DNA of 64,000 bases from Ginsengibacter hankyongi (lineage in GTDB: Bacteria; Bacteroidota; Bacteroidia; Chitinophagales; Chitinophagaceae), in the NCBI RefSeq assembly GCF_008710285.1, contig NZ_VYQF01000001.1, forward strand, positions 1,497,501 to 1,561,500. Direction: 5' to 3'. The translations under genes were made by a program, and so were the position numbers. This document shows, piece after piece, positions 5,777 to 18,333 of this stretch (its first letter is position 1; each line of letters starts with the position of its first letter). The notes beneath the pieces were generated by a model. It worked only from the letters and a program-made list of their open reading frames with translations, did not search any database and had not been told where the DNA came from.

Positions 5777-5863
5777 GGAGACTTGTCCGAGTGGTTGAAG
5801 GAGCACGCCTGGAAAGTGTGTATACGGGAAACTGTATCAAGGGTTCGAATCCCTTAGTCTCCG
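5777..5863 (+). tRNA. tRNA-Ser(GGA)
   Basis: An 87-nt class II tRNA. The acceptor stem GGAGACT pairs with AGTCTCC (5856-5862), with discriminator G at 5863. The anticodon stem CACGC/GTGTG encloses loop CTGGAAA, anticodon GGA, reading UCC/UCU. A long variable arm follows (pairing around TACGGGAAACTGTA), then T-loop TTCGAAT. CCA is not encoded. The last 22 bases form part of the 23-bp duplicated sequence repeated at 18311-18333, so the island integrated here and left the tRNA intact. Confidence 0.95.
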
Positions 5864-5864
5864 C
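5842..5864 (+). repeat. attL core (23-bp direct repeat, copy 1)
   Basis: Starts GGTTCGAATC and ends GTCTCCGC; identical to 18311-18333 over 23 bp and different on both sides. It covers the T-arm and 3' acceptor strand of tRNA-Ser. Confidence 0.93.
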
Positions 5865-5876
5865 CTACTAAATTCA

Positions 5877-5901
5877 AAAACCCTTATTCAGTAAGGGTTT
5901 T
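5877..5901 (+). terminator. Terminator-like hairpin just inside attL
   Basis: Stem AAACCCTTA with TAAGGGTTT, loop TTCAG, then TTTTATTATT. It lies 13 bp inside the island and probably terminates the tRNA-Ser transcript, replacing the host terminator displaced by integration. It occupies the 56-bp spacer between the attL core and the arm repeats. Confidence 0.7.
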
Positions 5902-5920
5902 ATTATTTATAAGCAATAGG

Positions 5921-5940
5921 GGTAGCAAAAAAGGTAGCAA
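5921..5940 (+). repeat. Arm-type repeat pair, left end
   Basis: GGTAGCAA-AAAA-GGTAGCAA, a 12-bp-period direct repeat 56 bp inside the attL core. Other pairs lie at 9944-9963, 15306-15325 and 18183-18202. Paired short direct repeats beside the core are what arm-binding domains of tyrosine integrases recognise in other systems; binding here is inference. Confidence 0.65.
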
Positions 5941-6740: not shown

Positions 6741-6814
6741 AGTCCCGTAGCTCAATTGAATAGAGCCGACATCTGTCTAATGTTTTAATGTGGGTTTGAA
6801 TCCCACCGGGACTA
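6741..6814 (+). tRNA. tRNA-Asp(GTC)-like gene carried by the island
   Basis: A 74-nt cloverleaf can be drawn by eye. The acceptor stem AGTCCCG/CGGGACT has seven Watson-Crick pairs with discriminator A. D-stem is GCTC/GAGC with loop AATTGAATA. The anticodon stem GACAT/ATGTT (one G-T) holds loop CTGTCTA, anticodon GTC. T-stem is GTGGG/CCCAC with loop TTTGAAT. CCA is not encoded. Oddities: position 37 is T rather than a purine, and the GG of the D-loop is GA while C56 of the T-loop is T, so the 19-56 tertiary pair could be A-U in place of G-C. A15 and T48 can still form the Levitt pair. It may be a real minor tRNA, a decayed one or a tRNA mimic. Confidence 0.6.
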
Positions 6815-6921
6815 CTTTATACTTACAAATGTAAACACAATACCGATACCAAGAAATATTTTAAAAAAAAAAATTGCATAAATTTTTTGTACAATTTTTT
6901 TGGCTCAAAACGTTGGAAAGT

Positions 6922-7545
6922 TCACAAAACCTGCAACAACACATCATGATCACTTAATGCATTTATAGTAAACGGCTGGGAAGAATAGCCGCCCGCTTCC
7001 TGTTCGAAAGTGATATCCTTTATAACAATATTATTAATGTCCAGGTTATTCAAATAAGCGCAAATGACAGGAATGGGCACGTTTGCAATCAGTTGATTTT
7101 TTAACGCGATTATTTCGTCGGCTGGATGGTGCCCGTTGCCGCCAACGATAAGGCCATTAATTTTTATTTGCCAATCATCAAGTCCAACAAATTCTTTTAT
7201 CGTACCATTACGGCCGGGGATAGATGTTCTAACTATATTCTTTGTCATAGAACAACTGAAAAGAATATTTATGAGGGTTAGCGGCTTTGTGGTTCTTTGC
7301 CTACCTGTATTTTGATCCGTATAAAGAACAGATCCAAAAGTGATATCCTGCATAACAGGCGTACCCAGGGGAGACATATAAAGCGGCTTATCCGGTGTGA
7401 ATGCCTGTATCTTACCTTGAAACTGGTTTTGCTCTGGTGGCATAGTTGGCATGCCTGCAATATTGAAGGCTCTTACAATTTCAGCAATAGGGGCACTCTT
7501 TATAAAAATTGGTTGCGGTATGTTGTTTAGGTCTGGCATGTACAT
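6922..7545 (-). CDS. DUF6046 phage-associated protein
   Basis: A 207-aa protein with features I associate with DUF6046, a family seen in Bacteroidota phages and probably baseplate- or tail-associated. The core motif SCSMTKNIVRTSIPGRNGTIKEFVGLDDW (about residues 93-121) is followed by INGLIVGG and a C-terminal ITFEQEAGGYSSQPFTINALSD segment. There is no signal peptide or membrane segment. Its ATG overlaps the TAA of the upstream 98-aa gene by one base (TAATG), so the two are translationally coupled. A second ATG lies two codons downstream. It is the only tail-type gene seen in the island, which makes its role unclear: a helper-remodelling part, or the last relic of a tail module. Confidence 0.65.
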   Translation of the reverse strand: MYMPDLNNIPQPIFIKSAPIAEIVRAFNIAGMPTMPPEQNQFQGKIQAFTPDKPLYMSPLGTPVMQDITFGSVLYTDQNTGRQRTTKPLTLINILFSCSMTKNIVRTSIPGRNGTIKEFVGLDDWQIKINGLIVGGNGHHPADEIIALKNQLIANVPIPVICAYLNNLDINNIVIKDITFEQEAGGYSSQPFTINALSDHDVLLQVL

Positions 7546-9225: not shown

Positions 9226-9378
9226 ATGAAAAATAAAATAATTATATCACCTTCGAATAAAAAGGCAATTGAGCTAATTAAATCTCTCAAAGATAAGAAA
9301 GCTCAAATTCAGAAGCACTTTGCCCAAGCTGGAAAGCTTTCCTCGTTTAAGGTGGATTTCACCCACAGAGAGAAATAA
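9226..9378 (+). CDS. Small 50-aa protein coupled to the DUF6169-like gene
   Basis: A basic 50-aa frame starting MKNKIIISPSNKKAIELIKSL and ending HREK. The N-terminal strand and helix (IIISPSNKKAIELIKSLKDKKA) resemble the start of small antitoxin-like proteins, but no family is assigned. Its TAA overlaps the ATG of the next gene by one base (TAATG), so translation is coupled. It is too short for standard ORF lists. Gene size, order and coupling suggest a two-component toxin-antitoxin or defence pair; this is inference. Confidence 0.6.
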   Translation: MKNKIIISPSNKKAIELIKSLKDKKAQIQKHFAQAGKLSSFKVDFTHREK

Positions 9379-9941
9379 TGTTACCGGTCGTAAAAGACTT
9401 TTATTCCCATTCATTCGATACTGAAGAAGATATTACAGTTGCTTGGTTTCAAACAAAAACTGATACTGTTTACAGGGCGTATTTTTATCCATTAAAAGAC
9501 TACTTAGATATTGTAAAGTCGGGCACAATCCTTTTTGAAAAAGGATTTTTTTTTGGTTTTACAAAAGTAGGTGACAATGAAGATAAGAAAGAGGCCATGG
9601 ACTCCAAAATAAAGAACACAATTATCAATATAGTTACTGAGTTTTTTTCTGATGTGAATGACTGTGTATTGATTTTCCATTGCGACAATGGTGATAATAA
9701 GAAAAAACTCCGAAACAAAAGGTTTGACGAATGGTTTGCAAACTCGAGTATCGAAAATTCTTATTTAAAATATGATGAAACGGTAATAAGTTTTGAAATT
9801 GGCCCTAATGGGCAAGTTATTGAAGATACTGAATACCTCAGCTTAATTATCCATTCAGGCAATCCCGTAATAGAGCAAGCCGTCCAGGAATTTCAAAAAA
9901 TAAAGGATCAACTCATATTAAACAAGTCTAATGGAGATTAA
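9378..9941 (+). CDS. DUF6169-like protein
   Basis: A 187-aa protein with features I associate with the DUF6169 family of Bacteroidota: an N-terminal Y-x-F-type beta segment (KDFYSHSFDTEEDITVAWFQTKTDTVYRAYFYP), then DSKIKNTIINIVTEFFSDVNDCVLIFHCDNGD followed by KLRNKRFDEWFAN. The family has no known function. It is the only protein-coding unit of the island read rightward, with its own promoter and a coupled 50-aa upstream gene. That is typical of accessory cargo. Its stop codon lies 2 bases before an arm-type repeat pair (9944-9963). Confidence 0.6.
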   Translation: MLPVVKDFYSHSFDTEEDITVAWFQTKTDTVYRAYFYPLKDYLDIVKSGTILFEKGFFFGFTKVGDNEDKKEAMDSKIKNTIINIVTEFFSDVNDCVLIFHCDNGDNKKKLRNKRFDEWFANSSIENSYLKYDETVISFEIGPNGQVIEDTEYLSLIIHSGNPVIEQAVQEFQKIKDQLILNKSNGD

Positions 9942-9943
9942 AA

Positions 9944-9963
9944 TTGCTACCAAATTTGCTACC
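9944..9963 (-). repeat. Internal arm-type repeat pair A
   Basis: Reads GGTAGCAA-ATTT-GGTAGCAA on the minus strand, identical to the right-end pair at 18183-18202. It lies exactly 56 bp from the core-like sequence at 10020-10042. Confidence 0.7.
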
Positions 9964-10019
9964 TTATTAAATATAGCCTGCATCAATGCCTATACTCATT
10001 GATTTTTAAAAAAATATTT

Positions 10020-10042
10020 TTGGAGCAACAGCGATTTGAACC
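10020..10042 (-). repeat. Internal att-core-like sequence A
   Basis: On the minus strand it reads GGTTCAAATCGC then TGTTGCTCCA, about 15 of 23 bases identical to the attL core and like a tRNA 3' end. It begins directly after the TAA of the 168-aa gene. The distance to arm pair A equals that at attL (56 bp). Confidence 0.55.
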
Positions 10043-10549
10043 TTACTTTTTAAGTGTCGCATAGTAAGAAGAATACATGCTGATTTTTAAAAACCCTTTC
10101 TTTATCAGGATGTCTATTTCCGTTTCAGATTCGTGAATTAATTCCTTTGCAGCTAGCCAGGCTGGATGTTCATTTCTGATCTGAAACATTCTATCATAAA
10201 CAAGACAGCCGTTTACAATATCCCTTAAATGAGTCCCCCAATTTTTTATTAAGTGCTTTTTTAAACATTCGTTGGCATCGCCCTTTTCAACAACGAAACT
10301 ATTTTCAAAATCATACCAGTCTGAAAGGTTATTGATATCAGCTTCAAGCGAAGCGTCAAGTCTTAGCAGGTAAGCATCTTTCAAAGTTTCAGGACCATCT
10401 TTATAATTAAGGTTCGCCGCTTTTCTTTTTGCAGCGGCTACCAATACGAACAAGGCCCAATCAGTATCAATACTTGCAAGATATTCATTAGCCATTAATT
10501 TTATTTTTTCCATTAGCATTGAATGGATATACCCATTAAATTTTTTCAT
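10043..10549 (-). CDS. Unknown 168-aa protein after TerL
   Basis: No family recognised. A helical, soluble protein with motifs such as EYLASIDTDWALFVLVAAAKRKAANLNYKDG and HLIKNWGTHLRDIVNGCLVYDRMFQIRNEHPAWLAAKELI. It overlaps the TerL stop by 4 bases (ATGA), so it is translationally coupled to the terminase and may be a packaging partner; that is inference from position. Its stop codon abuts the internal att-like sequence A. Confidence 0.55.
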   Translation of the reverse strand: MKKFNGYIHSMLMEKIKLMANEYLASIDTDWALFVLVAAAKRKAANLNYKDGPETLKDAYLLRLDASLEADINNLSDWYDFENSFVVEKGDANECLKKHLIKNWGTHLRDIVNGCLVYDRMFQIRNEHPAWLAAKELIHESETEIDILIKKGFLKISMYSSYYATLKK

Positions 10550-11997
10550 TTGTATGCACTATTATGGTTAGAAATATTTTTTCCGTAAGTAATTAACATT
10601 GGCCGTCCACCTCTTCGGTATTTATCAAATTCTCCCGGGAAGATGGAAGTAACTGCATAATCTAAAAGGTCTGTAAAATGATGGTGTTTCTCGAACGTTG
10701 CGCCCGTGTCAGCGTCTTTAACTTTCTGTTTTAACTTAGTCCCGTCGCTTGCTTCTAAACCATACAAAAGATCATTAATCATTTTGCTACACCTGTTGCC
10801 TATTATTATTTCAATCCCCTCATATCCAGTTTCGAAAATTGTGTTTATAAAATTCCCCCTCATTACAACCGGCGGCGCTAACTTACCGTAACGCATAGAC
10901 GGAAGAAACTGCTTTAACTCCTGTTGAATGATTGTATAATCATTAAAACCCTTTTCGCTTCGTGTATCTTCGTGCACACCTGCTGGGTCTCCAGTGATCA
11001 ACATTCCAGCTGAATGATTTTGATACTTTCTTATGACTTCCCGGCAAACATTTGAAGTCGTATTGTTTGGGCTTGGCAGTTGAATTTCGTCTATCATTTT
11101 CATTTTCCTGCTCTCTATCTGGAAGATACCACAAGACACGCCGGGAAGCACATTAAAATCAAATGACAGCCATAAAGGCAATGATGGATTATACTTTGTT
11201 TCACTTACGTTTTTCCCAATAGAAAAAAGTTTATAAAATTGGCCGCCTGTGATCTTATTACCCCAACGCCCCAGGCAATAAATGGTGTAATAGTATGGAT
11301 TTGTTTTTTTAAGTTCCTGAAGAAAAGCAATAAATTCATCAGGTATATAACGGTTATCCTTATGCGTACTATGATGCGAAGTATATCGCATTTCAATAGT
11401 TTTGTTCTGGTCTATTTCTACCCGCGTTATATCGGTAAAACTTGTTTCTAGTTTATCTTCAAAAAACTTCTTCCAAAACCAATTTTGCGTGTAGTCCCCT
11501 TCCACTTCAGGATTGATTGAAAATATTTCTTGCAAGTAATTTGCTTTACTTGTTCTAATCGAAGTCGTGATCGTTATAAAATCCTTTTCTGAAATAATAT
11601 CTTCTTCATACCATGCCCCGGTGGGATCCTTAATTGATTTGAGCCGTGTGGTATCATCACAGCCCCTGGCAAGGAATTTATTTCCATTAATGCAAACGAT
11701 CTCGAGCGGACTTACTTTGAACTGAAACAAAGGATCTAGCCCTAGATCAAAAACAATATCTTTTAATGTCTGAAACTGGCTGTCCTTAATCGATATGTAC
11801 TCATTGCGAACCAGTATGTATCTAAAATACTTTTCAGTAAGGCATCTATAGATTAATTTCTTTGCTGCAAAATCGGATTTAGACGAACCACGGCCGCCCC
11901 ACAAAATTAAATACCTGTCTGTATTATCAACTAGAGGAACAAACCTTTCATTAATTAATTCATTCCATTCAGGCCATAAGATTTCATAGTCCCTCAT
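10546..11997 (-). CDS. Phage terminase large subunit
   Basis: The DNA-packaging motor: an N-terminal ATPase pumps DNA and a C-terminal RNase H-like nuclease cuts it. The 483-aa protein has Walker A LWGGRGSSKSDFAAKK (about residues 32-47), Walker B region GAWYEEDI, and nuclease-domain motifs WLSFDFNVLPG, ITGDPAGVHED and HHFTDLLDYAVTSIF, with acidic residues in place. Length is normal, so the gene looks intact. It overlaps the DUF5681-like gene upstream and the 168-aa gene downstream by 4 bases each. A TerL without portal or capsid genes is unusual for a prophage. Confidence 0.9.
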   Translation of the reverse strand: MRDYEILWPEWNELINERFVPLVDNTDRYLILWGGRGSSKSDFAAKKLIYRCLTEKYFRYILVRNEYISIKDSQFQTLKDIVFDLGLDPLFQFKVSPLEIVCINGNKFLARGCDDTTRLKSIKDPTGAWYEEDIISEKDFITITTSIRTSKANYLQEIFSINPEVEGDYTQNWFWKKFFEDKLETSFTDITRVEIDQNKTIEMRYTSHHSTHKDNRYIPDEFIAFLQELKKTNPYYYTIYCLGRWGNKITGGQFYKLFSIGKNVSETKYNPSLPLWLSFDFNVLPGVSCGIFQIESRKMKMIDEIQLPSPNNTTSNVCREVIRKYQNHSAGMLITGDPAGVHEDTRSEKGFNDYTIIQQELKQFLPSMRYGKLAPPVVMRGNFINTIFETGYEGIEIIIGNRCSKMINDLLYGLEASDGTKLKQKVKDADTGATFEKHHHFTDLLDYAVTSIFPGEFDKYRRGGRPMLITYGKNISNHNSAYK

Positions 11998-12269
11998 GTC
12001 GACTGCTTAACCTTTACTTCAATTCTCACAGGCCCATCCAGCCCGGTTAATTCTGTACGTTGCAATTTTGGCTTTACGTATTCAAATAAGGTCATGTAAG
12101 CCGTAATAAATTCTTTGCCTTCCAATTTATTCAGTTCTGCTTTAAACTTTTTCATGCCGCCTTCAACAATTGTTTGCGCGAATGTTTCAAGTATTAGTGT
12201 CTTTTTACTTTTTAATCCTGGCGGCTTGCCTGTAATGTTTCCGCTTTCTCCCTTTTTAAATTGTGCCAT
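11994..12269 (-). CDS. DUF5681-like protein, putative small terminase
   Basis: A 91-aa protein beginning MAQFKKGESGNITGKPPGLK, the basic Gly/Pro-rich start typical of DUF5681 proteins, which often precede TerL in phages and are treated as small-terminase-like. A helical middle (KTLILETFAQTIVEGGMKKFKAELNKLE) and a tail ending KVKQST follow. The stop overlaps the TerL start by 4 bases. The small terminase would choose the DNA to be packaged; in satellites it redirects packaging to satellite DNA. That function is inferred from position and N-terminal resemblance. Confidence 0.7.
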   Translation of the reverse strand: MAQFKKGESGNITGKPPGLKSKKTLILETFAQTIVEGGMKKFKAELNKLEGKEFITAYMTLFEYVKPKLQRTELTGLDGPVRIEVKVKQST

Positions 12270-12289
12270 AATTTTCCTGATTTTGCCTG

Positions 12290-12760
12290 CTATTTGCAGG
12301 TAATTGAAGTTATTTTGTTAGAGCCAATCTGAGGAATGGATAAGTTATGAAAACTGTATCCCTTTGCTTCATAAGGTGTGATGTACCTTTCAATAAAGAA
12401 GTCAATTTCCTTGGCTATTTTTACCTCACCTTTTTTGTAATGCCTGGTTAAATCATATACCTTCTTTTGCCGTAATAATGAATTGAGATTACCATCAAAA
12501 AAAATAGTCATCTCTTGCCCCGCAACTTTAGCCGGAAATCCCTGCTTTAAATTGAGAAACCAGTTTTCCGGACTCCCTTTAAAGATTAACGGCATATAAA
12601 GATTTCCGCGGTATTTAAACGATGCGTCTTTGGCTTCCAATATTAATTTCTGTACAGCTGGCAAACTGTCAATACAAAAAACATCCATTGATAATATTTT
12701 ATCAGTTTCGAAAAACGTTTTCGCGTCTGTGATTAACGATAATTCTGAAATTTTTATCAT
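12290..12760 (-). CDS. Unknown 156-aa island protein
   Basis: Not recognised. A soluble mixed alpha/beta protein with motifs such as KYRGNLYMPLIFKGSPENWFLNLKQGFP and EIDFFIERYITPYEAKGYSFHNL. It lies between the candidate origin (12785-12900) and the DUF5681-like gene, 20 bp upstream of the latter on the same strand. A role in replication or packaging choice is only suggested by this place. Confidence 0.5.
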   Translation of the reverse strand: MIKISELSLITDAKTFFETDKILSMDVFCIDSLPAVQKLILEAKDASFKYRGNLYMPLIFKGSPENWFLNLKQGFPAKVAGQEMTIFFDGNLNSLLRQKKVYDLTRHYKKGEVKIAKEIDFFIERYITPYEAKGYSFHNLSIPQIGSNKITSITCK

Positions 12761-12784
12761 TGTATTTGGGTTATTAAAGTCAGA

Positions 12785-12900
12785 GTATTAGCGGTATTAA
12801 CGTTTGTATAGTAGCATTAGGATTATATAATTATTCTTATAGGCTATTATTAATTTTTTAATTCTATACTCTCCTATACAAACGTTAATACTGCTAATAC
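12785..12900. other. Candidate replication origin (27-bp inverted repeat around AT-rich core)
   Basis: Arms 12785-12811 and 12874-12900 are reverse complements with 26 of 27 bases matching. Each holds two GTATTA-type repeats and the string AACGTTTGTATAG. Between them lie 62 very AT-rich bases. The site is 8 bp beyond the end of the VirE-type primase-helicase gene, a usual place for a satellite or plasmid-type origin. A terminator or packaging site is possible. Confidence 0.5.
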
Positions 12901-12908
12901 CGGCCCCT

Positions 12909-15239
12909 TTAAAATGGTAAATCATCCGCACCAGAAATACATTCAAACTCAGGCCTATTAATAATCACACGCTTTTCAACAACAAAATACCATGATGCAA
13001 AAACCCCTTCGATTTTTCTTTGCTTCCCTTCAATATCAATAGCTCTTAACGCTGCCGAAAGTTTATTAGGGTTTATTTTCTCTTTTGAGAAAAGTTCAAT
13101 CCTGTTTCTAATATCAGTGGCAGTCCTATAAACTCCGTTAGTATCATACTCATTTAAGGGCTTTTTGTAAAGTTGGATAACCATTTCAAACTCTGTCTGA
13201 ATCTGAGTAAACTTAGCAGTGCAACTATTTAAAAGTTTCATATCACTTCCCAGTACGTTATACTGGAATCCGTCATGGTATAAGTGATATGCTTCCATAA
13301 TATAGTCAACGGGGTTTATTCTATCTTTTCGTTCGAAGTCGATACTCAAAACCTCAATTGGAATGAACCTTCTATTGCCTGTGTGATCTCCTAATATTTG
13401 CAGGTCATTAGTTGTGCCCCCAAAAGTTGCTATACGCTTACGGCTTTCCTCAGCCTTAGCATAAGCGGCCCTCACATTAGTTCCCCCGGTAGAAAGCAAT
13501 GCTTTTATAGCTCCTTGGTCACGTTTCGATTTACCGGACATCTCATCATCATAAATAAGCCAATAACGGGAAATCGCGATATCCATGTCCCGCTTAAATG
13601 TGTCACTTGTTAGGGAAGAAAGATTTTTAATTGTGCAATATTTGCTTAATTCCTTTGGGAGAAAATTTTCAAAGAAAAAAGTTTTGCCAGTGCCCTGATC
13701 CATCCCGCAAAGAATAAGCATTAGAGGGGAAACATTTTCGTATAAGCATGCAACCATACCAACCATCCATTTTTTTCCAAAATAACGTGCGTACTCTTCC
13801 CCTACAGCATCTTCACAAATCCCGTCGCCTGTATTGGTCTTAATGCATGCGAATAATTCATCAATGGCTCCAGTAGGCCTGTAATCGACATTCTTTTTAA
13901 AAAATTCAAAAATGGGATGGTATTTATGAATGAAATTTGAATCGAGTATTTTGCCGATAGTGGTATAATCAGTTTTAGGAAATTTTTCCTTTATAGCAAG
14001 TTCAATACTGTGTATCTCATAATTAGTAAGCTCTTTATTGTCATTTTCTAACCGGTTAGTAATTTCGTTTATTCTCAGTGTGTAATTTGCTTTCAAAAAT
14101 TCTCTTATGCATTCCATGTCTGAGGTATCCTCATTAACATAGTCTTTCTCCATTACCTGGGTAACAATATCAATAGTCTGTTCCGGTGAAAAGCCAACAA
14201 ACTTTTCAAGATTATTTATTATAGTTTGGGACGAACATCCAGCCTGCTTTTGAGTGTAAGCAGCTTTTTTTATCATTGCAGTTTCCGGGGATTCAGTTGT
14301 GATCCCGGCTGCCTTGCAAATATTAAAGAAGAAGTTTATTGTAATTGCATGGTTTTTAATGTCCCGTTTCCTGTCATAGTATAAGCAAGCGTCATACTGC
14401 TTATCACACATCGCCTTATCATAATCACCAAATGCACTTATTCTATGGAAATAATCCCTCCCATCCTCTTTAAATTGATTAGCAATAGCAAATCCAACGT
14501 TTAGCCATATTCCGTATGAAGGCACAAGATCGATACCCCTTTCCTCAATTTCTTTTAGTATAACGTTTTCAAAATCACTCTTGACACCAATTGCAGGCCG
14601 TGAATTTTCTTTACGGGCTGCCGCTGTTTCGCGCTTTGGATAAAGTTTAAATACTTTGCTTTTTTCATTCAATATTAGAGACGGATCGTAAGAAACGAAC
14701 CGGGCGCGTGAAATTTCCTTGCAGCGCTCATCAACTGTTAATTTGTATTTCTCATATAAATAGATACGAAGTCCCTCGAAAGCTTCCCGATGTTTATCCG
14801 GAACGATTTTAAATATTATACAAAGGCCCGTATTCGAAATTGACACAAAGCATGCATAAACATAAGGGTCATTCCTTAGTTGCTTTTTTATCGCCTGAAT
14901 ATTGGGAACGTCATCCGCATCCATCCCGATAAAACCAGAGTGTTCAGTAATGCCAGCATTTGTGCGACTATTGCCACATCCTGAAATACAAACGATGGGA
15001 ACACCAGTTTTTTTTGCGTCTGTCCGTGCATCTTTATCTTTAATTGACCTAACCTTAAAAACATACTCTTGGTAAGTATCTCCTTGAACATTATCAAGAA
15101 AAATACCTATTGGTATGGTTACACAGCTTTTCGAATCTAAGACGTCTTTACCAAAATATAATTTTGCATCGGCTGTACCTGCGTCATGTTGAACCGCACA
15201 GGCATTTTTATTAGCGGTTTCTTGTATCTTTGGTTCCAT
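12909..15239 (-). CDS. VirE-type primase-helicase (BT4734-like N-terminal domain)
   Basis: Probable replication protein of the island, 776 aa. The N-terminal part (about residues 50-190) is BT4734-like, a primase-related fold, with HSGFIGMDADDVPN carrying the acidic pair near residue 105 and SISNTGLCIIFKI. The C-terminal part is the VirE/VapE helicase-type ATPase: Walker A CGMDQGTGKTFFF near residue 515, Walker B YWLIYDDE, sensor region GGTTNDLQILGDHTGNRRFIPIEV near residue 620. Such proteins are common in satellites and islands of Bacteroidota. Upstream is a leader with a stem-loop (15257-15284); downstream is the candidate origin. Confidence 0.85.
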   Translation of the reverse strand: MEPKIQETANKNACAVQHDAGTADAKLYFGKDVLDSKSCVTIPIGIFLDNVQGDTYQEYVFKVRSIKDKDARTDAKKTGVPIVCISGCGNSRTNAGITEHSGFIGMDADDVPNIQAIKKQLRNDPYVYACFVSISNTGLCIIFKIVPDKHREAFEGLRIYLYEKYKLTVDERCKEISRARFVSYDPSLILNEKSKVFKLYPKRETAAARKENSRPAIGVKSDFENVILKEIEERGIDLVPSYGIWLNVGFAIANQFKEDGRDYFHRISAFGDYDKAMCDKQYDACLYYDRKRDIKNHAITINFFFNICKAAGITTESPETAMIKKAAYTQKQAGCSSQTIINNLEKFVGFSPEQTIDIVTQVMEKDYVNEDTSDMECIREFLKANYTLRINEITNRLENDNKELTNYEIHSIELAIKEKFPKTDYTTIGKILDSNFIHKYHPIFEFFKKNVDYRPTGAIDELFACIKTNTGDGICEDAVGEEYARYFGKKWMVGMVACLYENVSPLMLILCGMDQGTGKTFFFENFLPKELSKYCTIKNLSSLTSDTFKRDMDIAISRYWLIYDDEMSGKSKRDQGAIKALLSTGGTNVRAAYAKAEESRKRIATFGGTTNDLQILGDHTGNRRFIPIEVLSIDFERKDRINPVDYIMEAYHLYHDGFQYNVLGSDMKLLNSCTAKFTQIQTEFEMVIQLYKKPLNEYDTNGVYRTATDIRNRIELFSKEKINPNKLSAALRAIDIEGKQRKIEGVFASWYFVVEKRVIINRPEFECISGADDLPF

Positions 15240-15256
15240 TTCGGTTATACATTTTT

Positions 15257-15284
15257 AAGCCTGTCAGCTCGTAACTACAGGCTT
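15257..15284 (-). promoter_or_regulatory. Leader stem-loop of the primase-helicase gene
   Basis: Stem AAGCCTGT/ACAGGCTT, 12-base loop, 17 bp upstream of the start codon. On the minus strand no T run follows, so it is not a normal terminator for this gene; it might affect translation. On the plus strand it is followed by TTTTATAT. Confidence 0.35.
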
Positions 15285-15305
15285 TTATATTGGATTTGTT
15301 CTCAA

Positions 15306-15325
15306 TTGCTACCTTTTTTGCTACA
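15306..15325 (-). repeat. Internal arm-type repeat pair B
   Basis: Reads TGTAGCAA-AAAA-GGTAGCAA on the minus strand, one mismatch to the left-end pair. It lies exactly 56 bp from the core-like sequence at 15382-15404. Confidence 0.65.
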
Positions 15326-15381
15326 CGGATTATTCATTATGTAAAAATTAGTTGGTAATCATTTTGTTAAGGTTTCATTTC

Positions 15382-15404
15382 ATAGAGACAATTGGATTTG
15401 AACT
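15382..15404 (-). repeat. Internal att-core-like sequence B
   Basis: On the minus strand it reads AGTTCAAATCC then AATTGTCTCTAT, about 15 of 23 bases matching the attL core including GTCTC. It starts directly after the TGA of the HTH gene, the same geometry as sequence A. Confidence 0.5.
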
Positions 15405-15698
15405 TCACTTTTTTTTATTTTTATACTTCGTGTCTTCGAGCGCCTTCATTACCTCCGGGATATTAAACCTAACGTGTGTGCCTACCAGAAAAAAAGGAAT
15501 CTTCCCTTTCTTTCTCAAGCTAAGTGCTGTTGGTTCTGTGACTCCTAAAAACTTACAAAGCTCCGCCTGGGTGACTGGCTTATCAATGCTAGTATCATTT
15601 GAATGAGTTGAGTTAGTGACAATTTCTTCACGGACTGCCTGTTTAACCAGGGCTAGCAAATCTTGTACAGGTATCTGTGAAAGAATAATGTTATCCAT
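15405..15698 (-). CDS. Helix-turn-helix protein (excisionase/AlpA-like)
   Basis: A 97-aa DNA-binding protein of the HTH_17 type: TQAELCKFLGVTEPTALSLRKKGKIPFFLVGTHVRFNIPEVMKAL (about residues 47-92) shows a winged-helix with a wing and the usual R-F/Y contact. The N-terminus (IPVQDLLALVKQAVREEI) resembles the helix found before the HTH in Bacteroidota mobile-element regulators. It overlaps the upstream HTH gene by 8 bases, so the two form one operon. Probable role: excision factor or activator of replication genes, as AlpA does in other satellites. Confidence 0.72.
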   Translation of the reverse strand: MDNIILSQIPVQDLLALVKQAVREEIVTNSTHSNDTSIDKPVTQAELCKFLGVTEPTALSLRKKGKIPFFLVGTHVRFNIPEVMKALEDTKYKNKKK

Positions 15699-15891: not shown

Positions 15892-16192
15892 AGTGATAAA
15901 ATTTTACTTTTTACCTGATAGGAAATGAGCGAACCAGAATGTAATCAAGTGCTAAATAATAGAATCTTAGTGGTAAAAAAGACACTTTAGAGGGAGCGAA
16001 AAACCTCAAAAACGATATATCGTTCGGTATCATTCGGCATCATTCGTTAGGTTCGTTAATATTTTGTTAAAATAGAAAAGGAACGAAAAAAATACTTGCT
16101 GTGGAGTTGTTTAGGCAAACTAACGACAAAGCATAATCGAAATAAAAAAGCCCCGGTTAAGGGGCTTTTTGTGTTTATGCTGCTTTTTTTGT
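15892..16192. promoter_or_regulatory. Control region of the two-HTH operon
   Basis: 301 bp without a gene. A perfect 14-bp palindrome AACGATATATCGTT (16011-16024) runs into about three to four 10-bp-period repeats of the type CATTCGGCAT (16021-16060), one per helical turn on the same DNA face. A terminator closes the 162-aa gene at 16144-16171. The layout suggests a regulator binding site; the regulator is unknown. Confidence 0.5.
16144..16171 (-). terminator. Intrinsic terminator after the 162-aa gene
   Basis: Stem AAAAAAGCCCC/GGGGCTTTTT, GGTTAA loop, able to work in both directions; it lies just past the stop codon of the minus-strand gene at 16193. Confidence 0.85.
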
Positions 16193-16681
16193 TTATGCTG
16201 CTTTTTTTGTTTCCTTTTCCAGTTCATCTTTATGAAACTCGTAATCTTCAAGCATTTCACAGATAGACAAGAGAGGTAAATATATACTCATAAATTCCTC
16301 TATCTGCCAAGCGCCAAAAAAAAGGCCTTTGAAGCTTTTTAGAAAGTTTTCGCCTAATTGAAATAAAGACCTATTAGCAAATTCGTAATACTCAAAGGAG
16401 GTAGGTAATTCTTTCTTTAGAAACTTAATTCTGTCTTGGGGGGTTTTTGCCTCAATCAATGCTGGTAAAATTTCATGTCCTAACCCCCACATCAGATCAT
16501 CGCGGGTATCCAAATTGTCCTTTGCGATTACTACCCATTTTGCAAATTTGCTGGCGGTAATTTTCTTTTCAAATAATAAAGCCATTTTGTTTGCAATCTT
16601 GTCCATTTCTTTTTGATGTTCATTAATTGGCATATCAAATGCCTGTTTTTTTACATTTGCTTTTTTTACTTTTGTGTTCAT
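16193..16681 (-). CDS. Unknown 162-aa island protein
   Basis: Not recognised. A soluble helical protein with a basic N-terminus (MNTKVKKANVKKQAF) and segments ANKMALLFEKKITASKFAKWVVIAKDNLDTRDDLMWGLGHEILPAL and FMSIYLPLLSICEMLEDYEF. The C-terminus (KETKKAA) and its stop are part of an 18-bp sequence repeated again just downstream. It lies between the integrase and the HTH operon. Confidence 0.55.
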   Translation of the reverse strand: MNTKVKKANVKKQAFDMPINEHQKEMDKIANKMALLFEKKITASKFAKWVVIAKDNLDTRDDLMWGLGHEILPALIEAKTPQDRIKFLKKELPTSFEYYEFANRSLFQLGENFLKSFKGLFFGAWQIEEFMSIYLPLLSICEMLEDYEFHKDELEKETKKAA

Positions 16682-16756: not shown

Positions 16757-18148
16757 TCACACAGCCTTTAATTTAGGCTTACGAATCTCTCCCCAGGCAT
16801 TGCGCATTACAATTTTTGAACGCTGCTCTGTAATCTTTACATACCGTGAGAAGCTGGCATAATCTTTATGACCACTTATCTTCATTACTTCTTCTGCGCT
16901 CATCCCCTTTTCAAGTGATAAAGTACAAAAGGTTTTTCTCCCGGTGTGAACACTGATTAATTCATATTTAGGATATGAATTTTCTTCCCGTTTAGCCCCA
17001 CGAAAACGAACAATTTGAACAGGCTCATTTATTTCTGCAAGTTTGCAAAGATCCTTTAAGTAATCATTCATTTTTTGATTTGAAATAACAGGCAAGGGGC
17101 GAAGCATTTTCGAATACTTCTCCAGTATAGAATGAGAGAAAGGATTTAACGGTATGCTGGATTGCTGTTTTGTTTTGGTTACAATCAACCTGATTTCATC
17201 CTTTTTAATATGCTCTCTTTTTAATTGCGCAAGGTCTGAATAACGAAGTCCAGTTGCACATGAAAAACAAAAAACGTCCCTTACCTGGTCAAGCTTTTTA
17301 TTTTTAGAAAGATCAAAATTGTATAAGGTTTCAAACTCTTCGTTAGTCAATGCAATAACTTCTAAACTCTCTTTTTTTATTTTAAAATCCTTATACGAGT
17401 CTGAAACTGTAATCCCATGCATGCGGGCATAATTCAGGAATGTTTTTAATGTAGAAAGCTGCTTTGCGATTGTTACATTCCCAAGACCGTTTGGCGCTCT
17501 CTTGCTCTTGCTTTTTATAAGGTAGTTTTGAAAATCCATAAAAAAAGAAAGATCGATTTCATCAAAAGCAACCCTTCTTTTTTTTTCGATTTGATAATTC
17601 TGCAAATGATTTTTTAAAGATTTATAAACAGACATGCTGCCCGCTTCACGGCTTAACTTGTTGTCCTCAATATACTTTTCTATAAAATCAAATACCTGGT
17701 TAGTGGGGGCCTTCTTTTTGGTTGTTGGAAGCCTACTATCTTTTAATTCTTCAATGACCATTTCGGCGGAATAAATAACTCTGTTCAACTTAAACCGCTT
17801 TTCAATATCAGCCACATCCCTACAAAAGGACGCAAGCTCTGAATTTATATCTTTAATATCATTCGAAGACGGTAATAAATCAAAATTAAAGTTGGAAATA
17901 TTTCCCTCCTTTGTTGCCTTTTTTATGTAGCTCCTCTCCCTGGATATTGCCTGTTGTGAATCATTATCCCAATTAACAGGATGTAGCTTTTTGCCTGTTG
18001 TAAAATATTTCCTCTTATGTTCGTATTTCTCGTTTACGGGATTGCGGACGCCCCCAAGTTGATAAACCATTTGAATTGGTGAAAAGCCTTCTTTATCTGG
18101 CTTATCTGTACGAAGTACAAAACGGATAGTACCCATATACTTTGACAT
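16757..18148 (-). CDS. int: Tyrosine-type integrase of the island
   Basis: Catalyses insertion into and excision from the tRNA-Ser 3' end. The 463-aa protein has the Bacteroidota layout: an N-terminal arm-binding domain (MGTIRFVLRTDKPDKEGFSPIQMVYQLGG), a SAM-like core-binding domain (about residues 150-250) and the catalytic domain with Arg in CATGLRYSDLAQL, HTGRKTF (His and Arg), GHKDYASFSRY and nucleophile Tyr near residue 436. It looks intact and points inward from the right end. Its start is 34 bp from the arm repeat pair at 18183-18202, so integrase binding could also repress its own promoter. Confidence 0.92.
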   Translation of the reverse strand: MSKYMGTIRFVLRTDKPDKEGFSPIQMVYQLGGVRNPVNEKYEHKRKYFTTGKKLHPVNWDNDSQQAISRERSYIKKATKEGNISNFNFDLLPSSNDIKDINSELASFCRDVADIEKRFKLNRVIYSAEMVIEELKDSRLPTTKKKAPTNQVFDFIEKYIEDNKLSREAGSMSVYKSLKNHLQNYQIEKKRRVAFDEIDLSFFMDFQNYLIKSKSKRAPNGLGNVTIAKQLSTLKTFLNYARMHGITVSDSYKDFKIKKESLEVIALTNEEFETLYNFDLSKNKKLDQVRDVFCFSCATGLRYSDLAQLKREHIKKDEIRLIVTKTKQQSSIPLNPFSHSILEKYSKMLRPLPVISNQKMNDYLKDLCKLAEINEPVQIVRFRGAKREENSYPKYELISVHTGRKTFCTLSLEKGMSAEEVMKISGHKDYASFSRYVKITEQRSKIVMRNAWGEIRKPKLKAV

Positions 18149-18182
18149 TTAACGTTCATCAAATGTATAACCTATTGTTGAA

Positions 18183-18202
18183 GGTAGCAAATTTGGTAGC
18201 AA
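18183..18202 (+). repeat. Arm-type repeat pair, right end
   Basis: GGTAGCAA-ATTT-GGTAGCAA, 108 bp before the attR core and in the same orientation as the left-end pair. In the excised circle the core would be flanked by arm pairs at 108 bp and 56 bp. Confidence 0.65.
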
Positions 18203-18310: not shown

Positions 18311-18333
18311 GGTTCGAATCCCTTAGTCTCCGC
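18311..18333 (+). repeat. attR core (23-bp direct repeat, copy 2)
   Basis: Perfect copy of 5842-5864, preceded by A-rich island DNA (AAACAAATA). Beyond it host sequence resumes. Confidence 0.93.

Follow-up and report, generated by a model that had tools for sequence, protein, structure and literature searches.

Why should an integrated genetic element carry, between its two ends, sequences that look like one of those ends? In phage lambda a two-armed integrase binds the core and the P' arm sites that make up the left attachment site (attL), of which each prophage has one; lambda is not known to carry an internal attL-like site. The question is raised by a 64,000-nucleotide stretch of the Ginsengibacter hankyongi genome (contig NZ_VYQF01000001.1, positions 1,497,501 to 1,561,500; the window hereafter), in which an island of about 12.5 kb, inserted in tRNA-Ser(GGA), contains two internal stretches, w1 and w2, laid out like its own attL. 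A preliminary description of this DNA had read them as traces of stacked acquisition of attachment-site-bounded modules or as internal recombination sites, two proposals that the analysis does not support. Judged by their design, w1 and w2 are attL-type half-sites beyond chance. We favour, with a probability of about 40%, the reading that they are pseudo-attL sites, bindable by the island integrase, most likely non-recombining, and placed at the ends of gene modules.

Two internal half-sites with the layout of attL

The sites and the true ends of the island are the following (window coordinates).

5842..5864, plus strand: attL core, the tRNA 3' end, repeated at the right attachment site (attR)
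5865..5920, plus strand: attL spacer with the tRNA terminator hairpin (-13 kcal/mol, z -3.9)
5921..5940, plus strand: P' arm pair at attL, GGTAGCAA-N4-GGTAGCAA
9944..9963, minus strand: w1 arm pair, 16/16
10020..10042, minus strand: w1 core-like stretch, GGTTCAAATC-GCTGTTG-CTCC
15306..15325, minus strand: w2 arm pair, 15/16 (first G = T)
15382..15404, minus strand: w2 core-like stretch, AGTTCAAATC-CAATTGT-CTCT
18160..18191, minus strand: predicted promoter of the integrase gene (int), TTTG-N20-TACATTTG, overlapping the P arm pair
18183..18202, plus strand: P arm pair at attR
18311..18333, plus strand: attR core

The geometry given in the preliminary description was found as claimed: the four arm pairs read 5921-5940 and 18183-18202 on the plus strand and 9963-9944 and 15325-15306 on the minus strand, the gap between core and pair is 56 bp in attL, w1 and w2, each internal core matches that of attL at 15/23 positions, and a stop codon stands immediately ahead of each of them (TAA at 10043, TGA at 15405). 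The three cores have GTTCRAATC-N7-CTC in common and the distance from GTTC to the pair is 78 bp in all three, so that w1 and w2 both show the core/pair spacing of an attL-type half-site. The seven bases between the half-cores are probably the crossover, since in two related islands (G227 and L184, see below) attL equals attR only from about this stretch onwards. In the window island this stretch is identical between attL and attR; agreement is 2/7 between w1 and attL, 4/7 between w2 and attL and 1/7 between w1 and w2, and neither internal site has the crossover of a partner site.

The design is also rare. At no more than one mismatch, the arm pair is found four times in the 5.5-Mb genome, every time inside the island, and a scan of the window for core plus pair returns exactly three P'-type sites, against one weaker match in 960 kb of shuffled window. 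Two of 394 genomes of the family contain the composite core-plus-pair pattern, its own genome counted, the other occurrence (L090) being at tRNA-Ser; a second composite pattern is found in two of 395 genomes of the class, again counting its own. Within 200 bp upstream of w1 and w2 there is no P arm better than 6 mismatches. The likeness of the internal cores to tRNA 3' ends, which had been pointed out before, holds at the T-loop and CTC positions and fails elsewhere: the 20-base cores of w1 and w2 have no further match in the genome within 3 mismatches (a threshold without positive control), and a tRNA origin of these cores was rejected on this ground.

Recurrence in related islands

Our search with the integrase kept the best 80 of 345 loci, and an integrase with about 43% identity or more was taken to belong to the same clade. 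Besides the window island, we considered two islands of Ferruginibacter paludis, Fp1 (L011/L263) and Fp2 (L010/L264), one of Cecembia rubra (Cec, L014/L265), one of Algoriphagus ratkowskyi (Alg, L015), a viral contig (V781, L154+L107), the islands L012, L013, L184, L191, G227 (L185/L186) and G223 C11, and L267, a relic at the transfer-messenger RNA (tmRNA) gene of G223, which has no integrase and has lost attR. Eleven could be judged: the window island, Fp1, Cec, V781, L267, Fp2, L013, Alg, L184, L191 and G227; L012, which is on a short contig, and the G223 C11 island, with at least one end unseen, were set aside. The GTTC-to-pair distance at attL is 76-80 bp across the 11 islands, and the pair-to-core distance at attR is 127-131 bp in most of them; Cec, Alg and L191 deviate or have additional pairs, and the attR half-cores of L184 and G227 are worn. 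The arm sequence is GGTAGCAA in most islands and GGTGCAA in Cec and Alg. The target gene is tmRNA in five islands (L263, L265, L266, L191 and L267), and the tmRNA island L191 (9823-11974) is a mere 2.1 kb, its attR and attL enclosing little besides the integrase. In V781 a frameshift breaks the integrase in two (L107 12957-13894), and Fp1 carries a tRNA-Ser(GCT) within the island (L263 16405-16477).

Relatives had been named as the place to look for such sites and for block exchange. The sites recur, in four other islands; no block exchange was shown. In total, 6 internal attL-like sites were found in 5/11 judged islands, two in the window island and the others in Fp1, Cec, V781 and L267. On the single contig of Fp1 the attR pair lies at 105070(-), the internal pair at 110920(+) and attL at 122029(-); the corresponding positions in Cec are 139532(-), 145213(+) and 152549(-), with arms of the GGTGCAA type throughout, the internal pair matching at 12/14, and Cec is the only site-bearing island with such arms. 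V781 has attL at 2618(+) and an internal pair at 17711(-) with a degenerate core; its contig stops within int and attR is unseen. L267 has a remnant of HTH_17 and, on the strand of that remnant and opposite to attL, a pair with a core-like stretch. In all five islands the internal sites and attL are on opposite strands, and the three islands in which attR was seen (the window island, Fp1 and Cec) show the same opposition to attR. On a common score the six internal sites reach 23.1-26.1. The highest value among 20 shuffled sequences made from four islands is 19.1, and that among the six islands without a site (Fp2, L013, Alg, L184, L191 and G227) is 18.4 on the internal-site strand.

Wider scans brought few additions. 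A de novo search for arms, made on a set without the window and V781, in which many loci end less than 10 kb from int, and with a threshold that overlooks degenerate cores, covered 113 loci with an integrase relative, 72 of them with an arm pair of 12-bp period; two islands, each present twice in the set, were the only ones with same-strand sites, Fp1 (L011/L263) and Cec (L014/L265). Among viral contigs, one pattern (A) matched 4 stretches, with this integrase seen only on the contig of L154, and another (B) matched 32, by inspection mostly chance or phage tRNA genes, one of them (L228) being an attP-like site beside a distant integrase. The primase of the window island has no relatives in these viral contigs and TerL has two (L223 and L224); what they share with the islands is TerL, plus one Fp2-like open reading frame (ORF) in L223.

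Are the internal sites simply worn copies of attL? Compared with the attL of their own island, they match at 89/94 arm positions, 39/42 T-loop positions and 17/18 CTC positions, and at only 15/42 positions of the 7-bp crossover stretch, which is near random; at most 4/7 crossover bases are common to any two internal sites or to an internal site and its own attL. The T-loop purine is A in 6/6 internal sites and G in 11/11 attLs. A terminator-like fold is present in 10/11 attL spacers and in 0/6 internal spacers: of the possible hairpins that the preliminary description had noted in all three window spacers (a weak one in the third), that of attL stands, while the w1 spacer (9964-10019) folds unremarkably (z -1.0) and the w2 spacer (15326-15381) has no hairpin. 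The purine, the terminator difference and the intact arms rule out decayed attL copies, and from the T-loop A and the missing terminator folds we conclude that, as sequences, the internal sites are a separate class and not worn attLs. By eye, the right half ends in TCTA in 4/6 internal sites; a tRNA origin would demand a tRNA starting with A. A helical phasing of the core-to-pair distances, apparent at first (78, 68, 67 and 46 bp), was weak when set against the attLs of the same islands (78, 77, 76 and 78 bp) and was dropped.

The sites lie at the ends of gene blocks, as had been noted for the window, and do so in the relatives as well. The gap from stop codon to GTTC is 1 bp at both w1 and w2, 7 bp in Fp1, 29 bp in Cec and 28 bp in V781; in L267 the same rule finds no upstream stop within 200 bp, and the HTH_17 remnant ends farther away. 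The gene before the site is HTH_17 at w2 and in L267, a 168-amino-acid ORF behind TerL at w1, and the last gene of the int-proximal run in Fp1, Cec and V781. Behind the site are TerS and a tape measure gene in Fp1, a ParB-like ORF and then the tape measure gene in Cec, the primase at w2, and a gene reading towards the site at w1 and in L267. Taken relative to int, the direction of the tape-measure block is (+) in Fp1 as in Cec, and (-) in V781; a block flip is at most suggested, since the gene order differs as well.

Possible roles of the internal sites and rival explanations

How might such sites work? A pseudo-attL would consist of a left half-core, a scrambled 7-bp crossover stretch, a right half-core and a P' arm pair. 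The integrase would grip arm pair and core together as it does at attL, forming an attL-like complex at the internal site; as the crossover there fits neither attR nor attL nor any further site of the host, strand exchange could not be completed, and the complex, sitting where the integrase-proximal gene block ends, could serve as a decoy or bridge. It would thereby restrain excision or part early from late modules. Integrase binding, the lack of recombination and a decoy or insulator role are what we infer.

A decoy or insulator is preferred here over a plain operator because the internal pairs have no full promoter motif. A promoter operator at these pairs was considered and rejected: the full consensus motif is absent, with the half motif TAnnTTTG in some excess (6 occurrences in 12 strand-windows, about 2.4 expected). 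The situation is different at the end of the island. The int promoter was predicted with the Bacteroidota promoter consensus, and its motif lies over the P pair in 2/4 islands tested: the window island and Fp2 have this overlap, Fp1 and Cec do not. The overlap suggests autoregulation of int. This overlap, and the precedent of the KplE1 prophage, where the integrase controls int at an attachment site (PMC2951348), make it plausible that arm pairs serve as operators. In KplE1 the sites of the integrase IntS double as an operator over the int promoter, with integrase and a recombination directionality factor acting at attL; the difference is that the KplE1 site is a terminal attachment site and not an internal one (PMC2951348).

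Other known systems offer partial likenesses. The attP of helper-embedded phage-inducible chromosomal islands (HE-PICIs) goes with a tyrosine integrase, a doubled motif of 12-bp period and fixed unequal distances, 81/132 bp from the attP centre as compared with 78/about 129 bp from the T-loop GTTC here, the reference points being different (PMC10111431). The arm sequence and the host bacteria are other ones, HE-PICIs target prophage late genes and not tRNA, and extra internal half-sites are not reported in the accessible text of that study (PMC10111431). CTnDOT and NBU1 also use Bacteroidota tyrosine integrases, and the NBU1 target is a tRNA 3' end; the tolerance of crossover mismatches is reported for those elements, and we do not carry it over to the window integrase (PMC10865867). 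Among titles and opening lines of abstracts in the open-access literature, a scope that leaves out most subscription papers, no description of recurrent internal attL-like sites was found. Such sites, probably non-recombining, are probably new within attachment-site biology. Tentatively, one may go further: in a clade of Bacteroidota satellites, attL mimics that do not recombine may be dedicated components of the genome, which the integrase uses as decoys or boundary elements to time excision and to keep early modules apart from late ones. The recombinase would then have a second job, done through sites with a scrambled crossover. If the sites are bound but unable to recombine, a satellite integrase would also regulate its element from inside, and the timing of excision would become testable through the removal of two short sequences.

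Several points weigh against this reading. (i), Sites are lacking in 6/11 judged islands of the same integrase clade, and their presence is scattered on the integrase tree, with four changes among ten labelled tips; these changes are forced by well-supported branches, and the window island (with sites) and Fp2 (without) are sisters. In this tree V781 is represented by a fragment covering 42% of columns, and L267, which has no integrase, was left out. (ii), The exact spacing, whose loss in homologues the preliminary description would have counted against its sites, is half preserved, being kept in 3/6 (78, 78 and 79 bp) and lost in 3/6 (68, 67 and 46 bp). (iii), The scored spacings were fixed after the sites were known; in a rerun that permitted any spacing of 40-95 bp the site-free islands peak at 19.1. 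(iv), The cores of V781 and L267 are degenerate, an equal core arising by chance in 107 positions with P of 0.014 and 0.048, and the Alg attR pair scores 24.4 with a chance core-like stretch beside it. (v), The T-loop A is also found in the attR cores of L013, Cec and Alg, so that this mark separates the internal sites from attL only. (vi), The gene preceding the site varies (HTH_17, then ORFs of 168, 84, 205 and 337 amino acids), and the internal pairs, as said, lack the full promoter motif.

A close rival, which we hold to be only somewhat less likely, is that the sites are fossils of module capture. An element of the same integrase clade would once have missed its usual target and inserted at the 3' end of one of the resident island's genes, as helper-embedded satellites do, leaving gene, core and P' as its attL; its integrase and P end would later have been deleted, and the block to the right would remain as captured cargo or late genes. 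This agrees with the position of the sites where blocks end, 5/6 of them following a gene stop closely, with right-hand blocks that hold late genes (tape measure, TerS) or cargo, and with a patchy presence that would match repeated gains; moreover, satellites embedded in a helper, integration away from the usual target and the capture of late genes have all been described (PMC10111431). Stray half-sites do arise, since one exists in G223 C28 (L193 9989-10085), where a core from the 3' end of tRNA-Lys, a terminator and a P' arm pair lie together with no tRNA in the surrounding 19.8 kb, the intact tRNA-Lys being elsewhere in the genome (L269). This orphan, however, looks to have kept its terminator, unlike the six internal spacers. 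Further, no second integrase piece was found in the five site-bearing islands (the only extra match is in G227, which is site-free), and none of them shows the second integrase and both attachment ends of an embedded satellite. None of the top four P-type sites per site-bearing island attains the 25-26 of most true attRs, but the scores of true attRs go down to 22.4 in two cases, so that a worn one could escape. The inner flanks of the internal pairs bear no similarity to the attL inner flanks, that is, to P' ends, apart from a 149-bp identity in L267 that is the overlap of its two facing 600-bp windows; the sole real flank link is the HTH_17 gene ahead of both w2 and the L267 site. Finally, all six sites have a single orientation. 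If the sites are fossils after all, they would be a sequence mark for late-gene capture by satellites, a process reported without such a mark in the text accessible to us (PMC10111431). Under either reading, the core-plus-pair geometry is a search pattern with which further cases can be located.

Active recombination, in which the integrase would invert or exchange blocks between the internal sites and attL or attR, seems to us improbable. The internal site and attL do face one another on either side of the right block, the tape-measure block differs in direction between Fp1 or Cec and V781, and the integrases of the Bacteroides elements CTnDOT and NBU1 tolerate overlap mismatches (PMC10865867). 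However, the internal crossovers agree poorly with one another and with their own attL, in a stretch where the window island has the same bases at both of its ends, and the gene orders of Fp1 and V781 differ in a way that a simple flip does not suffice to explain. Against internal recombination sites, as first proposed for w1 and w2, speak these differing crossovers, the lack of another host match to the cores, the missing P arms and the dissimilar inner flanks, and no block exchange was shown. Stacked acquisition is not supported: tandem stacking, with accretion of the kind known from cis-mobilizable elements, was rejected on the opposite orientation (5/5 relative to attL) and the missing P arms. 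No internal P-core-P' junction was found, every P pair in the 200 bp upstream of five internal sites has 6 mismatches or more, and a 3-mismatch pair, about 88 bp upstream, exists only in the L267 relic; in the window island, differing crossovers, dissimilar flanks and the lack of another host match speak against it too. Chance resemblance is of negligible probability: 9-mers resembling the T-loop are frequent, the cores of V781 and L267 are degenerate and the Alg attR shows how high a genuine pair may score with a chance core-like stretch next to it, but the pairs are unique to the island in its genome, shuffling gave a single weaker match, the composite patterns are so rare in family and class, and four other islands have such sites.

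Gene content of the window island

The genes of the island, and the tRNA gene that it targets, are the following.

5777..5865, plus strand: tRNA-Ser(GGA), the target gene, intact at attL (ARAGORN)
6922..7545, minus strand: DUF6046/baseplate-hub-like protein (Pfam PF19512; phrog_5233)
9378..9941, plus strand: DUF6169 protein, reading towards w1 and ending 2 bp short of its pair (PF19666)
10043..10549, minus strand: 168-amino-acid ORF downstream of TerL, its stop abutting core w1
10546..11997, minus strand: terminase large subunit, TerL (PF04466; phrog_3717)
12909..15239, minus strand: primase/VapE-type helicase (PF05272, PF08800; phrog_15962)
15405..15698, minus strand: HTH_17 protein, its stop abutting core w2 (PF12728; phrog_66 at E 2e-6, a weak excisionase/regulator match)
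16757..18148, minus strand: tyrosine integrase with SAM-like and catalytic domains (PF13102, PF00589)

The arm-binding domain of the integrase (PF17293) scores 21.6 bits, just under the curated cut-off of 22.6, and the island also encodes a small TerS-like protein with a weak DUF5681 match below cut-off. No capsid or portal family was matched among 13 ORFs (Pfam) and 10 ORFs (PHROGs), shorter ORFs being outside the scan. With int, HTH_17, primase, terminase and a baseplate-hub-like gene, the island has the gene content of a phage satellite, and a complete structural set is absent among the scanned ORFs. Because capsid and portal went unmatched there, satellite-like appears a fitting label as far as gene content can tell.

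A few further features were seen. The island carries its own tRNA-Asp(GTC) (6741-6815), between attL and the DUF6046 gene. A head-to-tail repeat of 18-bp spacing (16163-16208) lies at the end of a 162-amino-acid gene. Between the primase and a 156-amino-acid gene there is a 30-bp inverted repeat (93%) with arms 56 nucleotides apart (12785-12900), possibly an origin or a terminator.

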